From Dactylonectria macrodidyma (taxonomy: Eukaryota; Ascomycota; Sordariomycetes; Hypocreales; Nectriaceae): 64,000 nucleotides of DNA. The notes under the pieces are model-generated. The model saw nothing but the letters and a program-made list of their open reading frames with translations. It did no database searches and had not been told where the DNA came from. Location: NCBI GenBank assembly GCA_020744425.1, contig JAGMUV010000005.1:4092001-4156000 (forward strand). The letters are read 5' to 3'. Made by a program: the position numbers and the translations under genes. Below are positions 19,594 through 53,564 of the stretch, in pieces. Positions within the stretch are counted from its first letter, which is position 1; every line of letters begins with the position of its first letter.

Positions 19594-21413
19594 CTAATAG
19601 TAACTCTGAAGATCCGCGCTGTTGCCCCCGTATCCGCCCATAGGTCGTCCCTGCTGACTTGCTGGGCCTCGGGGAGGTTGAGCAGTCCATCCCTGACTGG
19701 GGCCAGTCGGGGCGGATGGCGGAGCTTGGGACTGGCTTGGTGGTTGGTAGGCATCATCATAATCAACCTGAGAACCATACCCACTCTGCTGGTTCCTGGG
19801 CTCGACATCATCAAGAGATCGATAGTTGAAACCGCCTCGCCCACGCCCGCCCCTGCCATTACCCCTCGAGGCATTCCGACCTCGATTGGAGTTGCCACCA
19901 CGGCCCCGGCTTTGACCCGAGCCCCCGCGACCACTTGAGTGATAACCTCGGGACTCGTTTCGACCAGCGTAATGGCCGTGCGTGTTTCTTTGATTCCAGT
20001 CGTCTTCGCCATTGTGTTTCCGCTTAGAAGTTTTGTTGGCGAACAGGCTCTCGTAAGCATCTTCCCGAGGGTCCTCAGCCTCGATTCGGAGAATGACTTT
20101 CTCACCAACGACAGTCTCGAACACGAATGATTTATCGGCTAGAAGGGGCTGCCAATTCTGTATCTTGCCAGCGTCAACTGGCCGAGCACCTTTCCTGAGC
20201 GCCAAAACAACGAGGGGACTGGGATTGTCCGTGTGGAACTTGGCCGTTGCAGGAACTGGTCGGAGGCAAGCAGCCCAGATACTATTCTCAAAGCAAGCTG
20301 TACCAGTAACTTCCCACTTCATCTTGCTGTTCATGCCGCCGACCTTTTCCAGAATACTAGCGGGACAGGGGCGAGGACATATGAGAATGTTGTTTCCGTG
20401 GTACTTGAGCTCATTCTGCGGCAAGTTAGGAGGAATCTGGGCGAGCTTGATGAGTTTCTTAGTATCATCGGGGTTGATCATGTAGCCGGTGAAGAAGACA
20501 GTCTTCTTAATCCTGAGCTTGTTCTGGCGCCTTGATGACGAGGATTGCTTGTCCACCATGTCATTGTGAATGTTGATCATGTGTTGGACTTCGGCAACTT
20601 CAACCACTGGGTCAAGAGTTGTTGAAGTATCGGCGACCTGAACTACCTCTGCCGCTAATGGACCCCGGGTGGGCATCGCGTTTTGTCTCCGGTTGTACTC
20701 GGCAAAGAAGTCGCGGAAGCCCTTGGTGTGCTTGGGACGGTCCTCATAGACGCGGATTTCCTCTGCGTTTTTGTACGTCTCCATAAGAGCCTCGAGGAAT
20801 AGTTGCTTGAAGTGCATGGTGCTCTGAAATCGCTGGTTCGAGGGGCTGACCTGGGGCTTTAGACCGACCATGTCAAAGTCGAGACCTTTGACCTTGACCA
20901 TTTTCCGGATGAGGTCAGCGAAACCTTTCTCAGAGCGGCCGGTCAGGAGCACGCACAGCGCGTCCTTCTGCCTAATGCTCAGCCTGACGAGCTCCACGAT
21001 CTTTTCATTCCACCACCCATCCCATGCGCGCTGTTCCTCTTTATCGACGCCGTCGCCGGTCGCGGCAAGAATTCGATTGTCGTGCCACCAACCGCCATTG
21101 ACAAAGATGTCCTGGTTCGACAGCGTTCCTATCGTCGGACCGTTCCAAAGCGCGGGGTTTGGGAGTGGTGTCTTGAATACTGGCGAGTGATGAAATCAGT
21201 ATGGAACACCAGGGTGAGCGGCCGCAGCTAGGCGCAAAGTCGGCCGAACAGCAGGCATCACTCACGCGTATTGTCAAAGTCGTAGACGTGAAGGGCCTTG
21301 ATATCACCAATGGCAGGCAATGTGCTGTTCAAGACAGACCAGCGACCAAGGGCTGTGATGGTGAAGTTGGAGGCGGCGGCAGTGCCATGCAACGCGTTGT
21401 AGGCCGAAGCCAT
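19594..21413 (-). CDS. Swiss-Army-Knife HAD-domain RNA-repair-like protein with RGG tail
   Basis: Two minus-strand exons, 21413-21266 and 21179-19594, total 1734 nt (577 aa). The junction restores the HAD phosphatase nucleophile motif VYDFDNTLF (DxDxT) at about residues 44-52. It is followed by PLPNPALWNG and a WWHDNRILAATGDGVDKEEQ stretch. Another HAD motif is LCVLLTGRSEKGFADLI. This arrangement matches the fungal family described as the HAD domain of Swiss-Army-Knife RNA-repair proteins; enzymatic activity of such proteins is poorly known. From about residue 440 the chain is RGG/RG-rich (SGRGGSGQSRGRGG and following), typical of RNA-binding tails. It ends in a Gln/Pro/Gly-rich segment. A long in-frame extension upstream of the chosen Met lacks recognisable domains. 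Confidence 0.82.
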
Positions 21414-38880: not shown

Positions 38881-38885
38881 AAAAA
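38881..38885 (-). terminator. candidate RNA polymerase III terminator of tRNA-Phe
   Basis: Five T on the minus strand begin 11 nt after the tRNA 3' end, enough for Pol III termination. Confidence 0.65.
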
Positions 38886-38895
38886 GATAATTGTG

Positions 38896-39023
38896 TGCGG
38901 TTTATGTGGATCGAACACATGACCTTCAGATCTTCAGTCTGACGCTCTCTGTCAGTGAAGGTTAGTTGTGATTCTTAAGTGAGGGATTGATATTATGACA
39001 TACCCCAACTGAGCTAAACCCGC
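38896..39023 (-). tRNA. tRNA-Phe (anticodon GAA) interrupted in the D-loop by a 55-nt GT-AG intron-like insert
   Basis: Minus-strand sequence 39023-39004 gives the acceptor GCGGGTT, TA, D-stem GCTC and loop AGTTGGG. Sequence 38948-38896 gives the rest of the D-arm (AGAGC), anticodon arm TCAGA-CTGAAGA-TCTGA with anticodon GAA, T-arm ATGTG-TTCGATC-CACAT and acceptor AAACCGC plus discriminator A. Joined, they make a 73-nt tRNA. One acceptor pair (G5/A68) is mismatched. The anticodon loop has no intron at the canonical 37/38 site. The 39003-38949 segment between nucleotides 20 and 21 starts GTATGT, has an ACTAAC branch-type motif 14 nt before its end and ends ACAG. These are the signals of this genome's mRNA introns, not of a tRNA intron. 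Boxes A and B are intact but 55 nt further apart than usual. Confidence 0.85.
38949..39003 (-). other. spliceosomal-type intron candidate inside tRNA-Phe
   Basis: Length is 55 nt. Donor GTATGT is an optimal U1 match, the branch is ACTAAC, and the acceptor is CAG. Exact removal restores the D-loop/D-stem of the tRNA. The insert is A/T-rich and shows no internal inverted repeat or target-site duplication that would suggest a transposon. Confidence 0.75.
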
Positions 39024-52484: not shown

Positions 52485-52524
52485 GATTTGCTCAATCCCT
52501 TTCTGGGAAGATGTGTATAGGAAC

Positions 52525-52610
52525 AGCCCGATGCGGGGGTCGAACCCGCAACCTTGAGATGTGAATCTCTATTTAAGAGTCTCACGCTCTACCGATTGAG
52601 CTAACCGGGC
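52525..52610 (-). tRNA. tRNA-Lys (anticodon CTT) with a ~13-nt canonical intron
   Basis: Acceptor GCCCGGT/ATCGGGC plus T, D-arm GCTC-AATCGGTA-GAGC, anticodon stem TGAGA/TCTCA, T-stem GCGGG/CCCGC. The loop reads CTCTTA, then about 13 nt (AATAGAGATTCAC), then A, so the intron sits at position 37/38 as expected for nuclear tRNA splicing. Total 86 nt. Confidence 0.94.
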
Positions 52611-53564
52611 CTCGAACCGAGGCATTTGCTTGTTGAGATGGCAGCCTGCTATTGCAAATCAACTGGGTGTGAGTTTTGTGTGTGTGCAAGTTATGTGTGT
52701 GTGTGTGGGTGGGGCCATTGCTCCCACTTTTTCGGTGCACCTACCCGGGACCTGAGTGGTTGTAGTGGTTAAGCCTTGTAACTCCAGCTCACGATGGAAT
52801 CAAAAAAATGCACAATAGGCATATTGATTGAATTTATGAGTTTTCGGGTTTAGGTGTAAGTTCTTGTCACTTGAACGCGATCGAGAGCCTCCGCCAACAA
52901 TCGCCATGTTTTGTCTCGCGTCAAGTGTAGTTGCGTCGGTGAGAATAGCCTCATGCACATCAATTTGGTTGACCATGATCAGGAATTGTGAAACACACGC
53001 GAACTTGCTTAGCAGCAAGCTCCGCGGGTTCAAACTATCAATAACCTACCCCACCAATAGACCGTTGTGTCAACAGATTAACATAGCTTATAAGTTTTGG
53101 ACCATTGTCGTATAGGGTAAGCCAAATCCTCAAGGTGGAGTGAGAGTCAGCAACCCTTGACAACTCGAGTGATTAGAGACATAGGAACAGAGTCTTCACA
53201 ACGAACACTGGAACCAAATCCTGATTTGCGGTAGTTAATCATGTTTTTCTTCTGTCTACTAATCACCCCGTCACCGAAAGTAGGCGCCCTCCCACCCCGT
53301 CCCGGCCTGTTTCATCCAATTATGACTAGGCGGCAAGGGAGGGCGAGGTACGTGACGCCAGCCTATTCACACCATGTTGTTACCTTGTGCAACGGGCACA
53401 TCCGAAATAAAACAGACGCAGCACCGTGCACCCATTTTTTGACCGTTGTCCCAATCCATTCTCTTGCCAATTCTCAGTGTACAACTCCTGCATGCAGAGA
53501 GAAATCCAATCAATGGGTCATCTCATACTGGGGCTCACTGGAGCAAGCCGTAAAGGGCCTGCCA
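52611..53564. other. spacer with a GT-rich tract
   Basis: About 950 nt. A (GT)n-like stretch occurs at about 52671-52712. The right part is probably the 3' untranslated region of the eIF2A gene; the plus-strand frame crossing it is the antisense of that gene. No other gene recognised. Confidence 0.5.

Follow-up and report, generated by a model that had tools for sequence, protein, structure and literature searches.

Candidate mRNA-type introns in the D-loop of the tRNA-Phe genes found in Dactylonectria macrodidyma

Nuclear tRNA introns are taught as the domain of a single protein enzyme system that cuts at position 37/38. According to the available text of PMC8450103, a eukaryotic tRNA gene has at most one intron, and archaeal tRNA introns also occur away from 37/38; the search for noncanonical introns described there is one for archaea, tRNAscan-SE 2.0 seeking such introns with archaeal models. 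C. merolae is listed with multiple-intron tRNAs in the available part of PMC4033280. Introns of the mRNA type are present in fission yeast U6, for which an origin by reverse splicing has been proposed (PMC10484740, available text), and the accessible sections of PMC5832005 name U3 and U6 as the sole small structured RNAs for which frequent interruption is known, the main text, within those sections, mentioning tRNA once and then with regard to concerted evolution. The string "spliceosom" is absent from the accessible text of PMC4090602, and among the open-access papers listed by our searches we found mRNA-type introns for U6 and U3 and none for tRNA. Here we describe a D. macrodidyma gene that, from its sequence and by analogy with U6, is very probably a working cytosolic fungal tRNA-Phe(GAA) gene, with a 55-nt mRNA-type insert before A21 that would be removed by the spliceosome.

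The gene lies in a window of 64,000 nt, the whole stretch of DNA that was analysed, and its features are collected in Table 1. The initial annotation had described a tRNA-Phe(GAA) whose halves are split by 55 nt running GTATGT...ACTAAC...CAG, and this was confirmed on the minus strand: once the 55 nt are taken out, ARAGORN recognises a tRNA-Phe(gaa) of 74 nt, made up of the 73 nt and the base that follows, whereas it detects no tRNA in the unspliced gene. The gene is likewise missed by the intron-aware mode of ARAGORN and by Rfam at the gathering score, the top Rfam tRNA score across it reaching 22.8 bits where the cut-off is 29. ARAGORN called tRNA-Phe in 7 of the 26 GT..AG excisions tried, because the cloverleaf tolerates small changes in the D-loop, and the excision chosen is the one that gives a standard D-loop. 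The insert directly precedes A21, its putative branch A lies 13 nt from the intron end, and the anticodon loop, where a TSEN-type intron would sit at 37/38, is free of any insert, as had been claimed. The A and B boxes were assigned from their consensus. None of 200,000 random 55-mers carried GTANGT, a suitably placed CTAAC and AG, which, together with the recurrence of these signals in all seven tRNA-Phe genes found (see below), excludes a chance origin. The inserts of the tRNA-Gly and tRNA-Lys genes of the window sit in the anticodon loop (ARAGORN, Rfam); a tRNA-Phe(aaa) called by ARAGORN at 52524-52611 on the minus strand was rejected as an intact tRNA-Phe, since the intron-aware mode reads it as tRNA-Lys(ctt) with a 13-nt anticodon-loop intron.

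Table 1. Features of the interrupted tRNA-Phe gene (window positions) and locations of the interrupted tRNA-Asn genes
Feature	Position	Strand	Basis
tRNA-Phe(GAA) gene, D-loop interrupted	38896..39023	minus	sequence and excision; one of 7 interrupted genomic copies found
Exon 1, tRNA positions 1-20, 20 nt	39004..39023	minus	same letters in 7/7 copies
Insert with mRNA-type intron signals, 55 nt	38949..39003	minus	GTATGT...ACTAAC...CAG; excision restores tRNA-Phe
5' splice site GTATGT (putative)	38998..39003	minus	GTANGT in 7/7 tRNA-Phe genes
Branch site ACTAAC (putative), branch A at 38962	38961..38966	minus	CTAAC in 7/7 tRNA-Phe introns
3' splice site CAG (putative)	38949..38951	minus	CAG in 7/7 tRNA-Phe introns
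Exon 2, tRNA positions 21-73, 53 nt	38896..38948	minus	same letters in 7/7 copies
A box TAGCTCAGTTGG, entirely within exon 1	39005..39016	minus	sequence; box consensus
B box core GTTCGATCC	38908..38916	minus	sequence; box consensus
T5 run, terminator-like, 10 nt past the tRNA 3' end	38881..38885	minus	run of at least five T 5-10 nt past each of 7 copies
Interrupted tRNA-Asn loci	C77:962530-962790 and C77:961650-961860		

A search of the genome (77.3 Mb in 77 contigs, with all search counts being lower bounds) with the 3' half of the tRNA, allowing up to three mismatches, returned eight matches, comprising seven exact tRNA-Phe matches and one tRNA-Cys, and none with the reversed pattern. Using the joined exons as a DNA query recovered the same eight, each of the seven tRNA-Phe matches spanning residues 20-73 only, and the uninterrupted 5'-half pattern, again with up to three mismatches, had no match genome-wide. 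All seven genes are interrupted at the same site by inserts of 53-55 nt. One gene each lies on contigs C1, C10 and C11, and C45 holds the window copy and a tandem array of three (about 2457295-2457870, 217-bp spacing) with the same exons throughout and one intron differing from the other two; because two array copies have one intron in common, there are six distinct tRNA-Phe introns. The exons are identical (73/73) across all seven copies, and the introns and flanks of the five places differ. Each intron has GTANGT (as GTATGT, GTACGT or GTAAGT), CTAAC and CAG with the branch A 12-13 nt from the end, and each gene has an A box, a B box and a run of T5-T10 located 5-10 nt past its 3' end. A pattern made of the A box TAGC, GTANGT and CTAAC finds exactly the seven genes (reversed control: 0 on the forward and 2 on the reverse strand). 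The body of the C11 intron aligns with four of the five remaining introns no better than expected by chance and with the fifth at the borderline (p 0.05), and this otherwise barely alignable intron still has GTAAGT, CTAAC and CAG.

These results bear on the inactive pseudogene that the initial annotation had set out as the main alternative. We found neither decayed exons nor lost signals in any of the seven copies, and with every copy found interrupted and their exons identical a dead single copy is ruled out. The G5/A68 mismatch, suspected to be a mark of decay, recurs in all seven and thus gives no sign of decay in the window copy, and intact tRNA-Phe genes elsewhere, which would have spoken for a dead copy, did not turn up in the genome search. 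The plain reading of the exon identity would be selection on the exons and splice signals, rather than gene conversion of 20- and 53-nt exons that spares the intron between them. ARAGORN reported no tRNA-Phe at any of the five tRNA-Phe loci on which it was tried, and gave a tRNA (in one case without a named isotype) at 21 of 23 loci taken from 63 genomic tRNA matches, a sample chosen by hand and therefore biased to high-scoring genes. The remaining two (L021 and L024) are tRNA matches in the genome search, L021 aligning as a tRNA with an anticodon-loop insert.

For comparison with mRNA introns, we joined open frames in the window and in twenty 10-kb stretches of C1 (264 kb), and this search, which itself required GTRNGY, CTRAY and YAG, yielded 35 candidate introns (two pairs nested) versus 2 in the reversed control. 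The candidates are 48 to 86 nt long, their commonest 5' sites are GTGAGT (9), GTATGT (6) and GTAAGT (5), and CTAAC is present in 15 of the 35, with the branch A 11-12 nt from the end in nine of these. The tRNA introns appear to fit these signals: the 5' splice site follows the genome's GTRNGT consensus in all seven Phe genes and in both interrupted Asn genes described below, the branch motif CTRAC is present as CTAAC in all seven Phe introns and one Asn intron (the other has ATAAC). The 3' splice site, YAG by consensus, reads CAG in all Phe introns and departs from it as AAG in both of Asn. The proposed likeness to the mRNA introns of neighbouring genes holds for the frame-joined introns; the bare splice motif, with 30 matches in the window against a shuffled mean of 46, is not enriched. 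A lack of TTT in the tRNA-Phe introns was dropped as a Pol III signature, being uninformative because 22 of the 35 mRNA candidates are also without it, and intron 1 of U6 (see below) does contain T4-T5. The catalytic core of a group I or II intron takes up well over 100 nt, and the inserts, at only 51-56 nt, are too short for self-splicing introns of these groups. Three of the 10-kb samples from C1 (L051, L060 and L063) have a GC content of 0.24-0.29 versus 0.51-0.58 in the other samples; the genome thus has two compartments, one of them AT-rich blocks of the sort that repeat-induced mutation leaves behind in certain fungi. Among the proteins of the window, one encoded at 19597-21195 (minus strand) carries HAD_SAK_1 (6.9e-84), described in Pfam as the HAD domain of Swiss Army Knife RNA repair proteins. 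Both the introns and the gene content point to a fungus, and the best match of eIF2B-epsilon is chain 5b04_I, from fission yeast.

Introns with such signals are also present in the U6 snRNA genes of this genome, where scoring 47 out of 4305 first-look candidates yielded two genes (C34, about 3697181, and C56, about 1255336), with 43.2 and 41.4 bits, just below the cut-off of 44, and with the 5' half unaligned; two further candidate places, with 22.4 and 17.3 bits, look like chance. With exon borders placed on the U6 sequence, each gene is split by two introns 51-54 nt long, with the signals GTGAGT..CTAAC..CAG and GTAAGG..CTAAC..CAG, in which CTAAC lies 11 nt from the end and between which there is a 9-nt exon, AGAGAAGAT. 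Intron 1 contains a B-box-like GTTCGAACC in both genes, and holds a T4-T5 run; a match to the B box within mRNA-type introns of U6 has reportedly been announced in the title of a published paper.

We also detected inserts at the same D-loop site in tRNA-Asn genes. The A box TGGC with GTANGT and CTAAC occurs at three places (control 2 and 0), one of them a tRNA-Asn(GTT) gene, and the 3'-half pattern identified five tRNA-Asn(GTT) genes, all on C77, three intact and two interrupted. The inserts precede A21 and measure 56 nt (GTAAGT..CTAAC..AAAG) and 51 nt (GTAAGT..ATAAC..AAAG), and are less perfect than those of tRNA-Phe in ending on AAG rather than YAG and, for one of them, in having ATAAC for CTAAC. 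Their removal leaves sequences identical to intact paralogs, and the intron-aware mode of ARAGORN misreads one of the interrupted genes as tRNA-Cys. The five genes are of two exon types, one compensated T-stem pair apart (letters 51 and 65 of 74, A-T or G-C). Interrupted and intact genes occur in both types, so that gain, loss or conversion would have taken place at least twice. Because intact genes are present, the Asn inserts need not be essential and, by themselves, could be tolerated damage; the empty sites in the same genome, with identical exons, also make the gain and loss of these introns directly testable. An alignment of intron bodies across Phe, Asn and U6 gave p<=0.05 for 12 of 45 pairs, 8 of which are Phe-Phe; the four cross-family pairs (two Phe-Asn and two Phe-U6, p 0.01 to 0.044) do not carry enough weight to argue for kinship of the introns across the families.

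Genome-wide, the A boxes TAGC, TGGC, TAGT and TGGT combined with GTANGT and CTAAC gave 7, 3, 5 and 16 matches (reversed controls 2, 2, 1 and 7), and TGGC with GTAAGT alone gave 10 matches versus 11 in the control. The tRNAs among these matches are the seven Phe genes and the Asn genes, one with TGGC, GTANGT and CTAAC and two with TGGC and GTAAGT alone. Eleven other loci with A-box patterns (L080, L081 and L085-L093) were examined and none has a B box; excision followed by ARAGORN gave no tRNA at nine of them, L080 and L081 being judged by eye. Two apparent dispersed repeat families, beginning TGGTTGACGCGGCTGTAAGT and TAGTAAAACCGGTATGTATGT and by eye not tRNA-like, also match the A-box patterns; repeat-like matches make up 13 of the 16 TGGT places, on many contigs, and the 5 TAGT places, on C21, C22 and C40. 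In collections of viral contigs and of genome contigs, both without fungi as such, the interrupted tRNA-Phe pattern had no match, and the tRNA-Phe 3'-half pattern had none in the viral contigs and one in the genome contigs. The latter is an uninterrupted, organelle-like tRNA-Phe on the bacterial MAG contig PBGD01000032.1 (L071:6399-7227), which is filed under a Flavobacteriales MAG and bears an AT-rich tRNA cluster; its tRNA-Phe has a core in common with the fungal one, and the contig is likely a stray organelle contig.

If the inserts were instead removed by the tRNA splicing endonuclease, the GT..CTAAC..AG signals would be incidental, a reading to which we assign a very low probability. Usual anticodon-loop introns do exist in this genome, such as the 13-nt intron of tRNA-Lys(ctt), and five of the six distinct Phe introns allow a four-pair central helix next to the splice sites, two or three of its pairs being G-U in each case. 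Random four-mers make a central helix in 6% of trials, but these five introns share the intron end CCTTCACTGAC (38951-38961 in the window), which can pair with the anticodon arm (38923-38943; GTCAG, TGAAGG) in five of the six copies and not in that of C11, where the central helix is broken (3/4 pairs). Against the enzyme stands the inner helix of the bulge-helix-bulge, which reaches just one of four pairs in all six distinct introns, and for five of the six precursors the fold differs from shuffled sequences by no more than 1.2 sd, so that a conserved precursor fold was rejected as well, the folding energy being ordinary except for C11 (z -2.65; 4 of 300 shuffles as low). Moreover, the yeast enzyme cuts at 37/38 only (PMC4033280, available part), and its action would leave unexplained why GTANGT, CTAAC and CAG are kept in the C11 intron. 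With the wrong position and no complete bulge-helix-bulge, removal of the tRNA-Phe inserts by the endonuclease fits poorly and is unlikely.

We assign a similarly low probability to the interrupted genes being dead, with working intact tRNA-Phe genes absent from the assembly or missed by our searches: the counts are lower bounds, but the same kind of 3'-half search caught three intact genes among five for tRNA-Asn, and the exons are 73/73 identical in seven copies spread over five places while their introns differ. Persistence of the splice signals would be unexpected in dead copies, and gene conversion that homogenised the exons would be expected to homogenise the introns as well. Equally improbable, in our estimate, is transcription and capping of these genes by Pol II, with ordinary co-transcriptional mRNA splicing and the tRNA then trimmed out. 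The intron signals are indeed those of mRNA introns, but both internal Pol III boxes are intact, a T5-T10 run lies 5-10 nt past every tRNA-Phe copy, and U6, a known Pol III gene class according to the available text of PMC10484740, also has such introns in this genome.

We therefore favour removal of the tRNA-Phe inserts by the spliceosome. The reading as mRNA-type introns put forward by the initial annotation gains support from the failure to find an intact tRNA-Phe, the interruption of all seven genes at one site and the signals shared with frame-joined introns. Pol III would transcribe the gene from A and B boxes left intact by the insert and stop at the T-run, as suggested by the intact A box in exon 1, the B box in exon 2 and the T5-T10 run downstream, all of which are present in every copy. 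U1/U6 would then read GTANGT and U2 would read CTAAC in the precursor, the lariat would be released, and the joined exons would fold, be end-trimmed and be charged. Spliceosomal removal is suggested by the splice signals, the exact restoration of the tRNA and the U6 precedent; on the opposite side we count the AAG ends and the single ATAAC of tRNA-Asn, the bare motif that is not enriched, and the four-pair splice-site helix in five of six Phe introns. Since no intact tRNA-Phe was found, the supply of this tRNA would depend on the spliceosome, which the cell likely needs in order to read phenylalanine codons, although the tally is a lower bound and a copy could be absent from the assembly. A tRNA-Phe of the mitochondria would be of no use to the cytosol. 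The introns may have arrived by reverse splicing of an mRNA intron or by copying between tRNA genes.

The 37/38 rule would not hold for a tRNA family whose introns are all of the mRNA type, translation would be tied to splicing capacity, and, if true, this would suggest that the spliceosome can accept a transcript that is likely uncapped and whose 5' exon is 20 nt plus a leader. As ARAGORN was blind at all five Phe loci and tRNAscan-SE 2.0 seeks noncanonical introns with its archaeal models, such genomes could seem to be without tRNA-Phe. On balance, we think it probable that the spliceosome provides a third removal route for nuclear tRNA introns, with the whole tRNA-Phe supply passing through it and with the D-loop site before A21 serving as a recurrent landing place that extends to tRNA-Asn, such introns occurring in pairs in the U6 genes that splicing itself requires.

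The tRNA-Phe inserts resemble canonical TSEN-type introns in lying within a nuclear tRNA gene, but differ from these 37/38 introns in their position at 20/21, in their mRNA splice signals and in lacking a complete bulge-helix-bulge. A position away from 37/38 is shared with tRNA introns of the archaeal and C. merolae type; archaeal introns, however, have bulge-helix-bulge motifs cut by the endonuclease, in place of which the tRNA-Phe inserts have splice-site and branch motifs. Fungal U3 snoRNA genes likewise contain mRNA-type introns in a structured non-coding RNA, frequently so in fungi, yet here the host of the interrupted gene is a tRNA. Finally, as in fungal U6, short GT-AG introns with a branch motif reside in a small structured Pol III RNA; unlike in U6, the host is a tRNA, the site is the D-loop before A21, away from the splicing catalytic nucleotides, and the interruption affects an essential tRNA family in each copy found.
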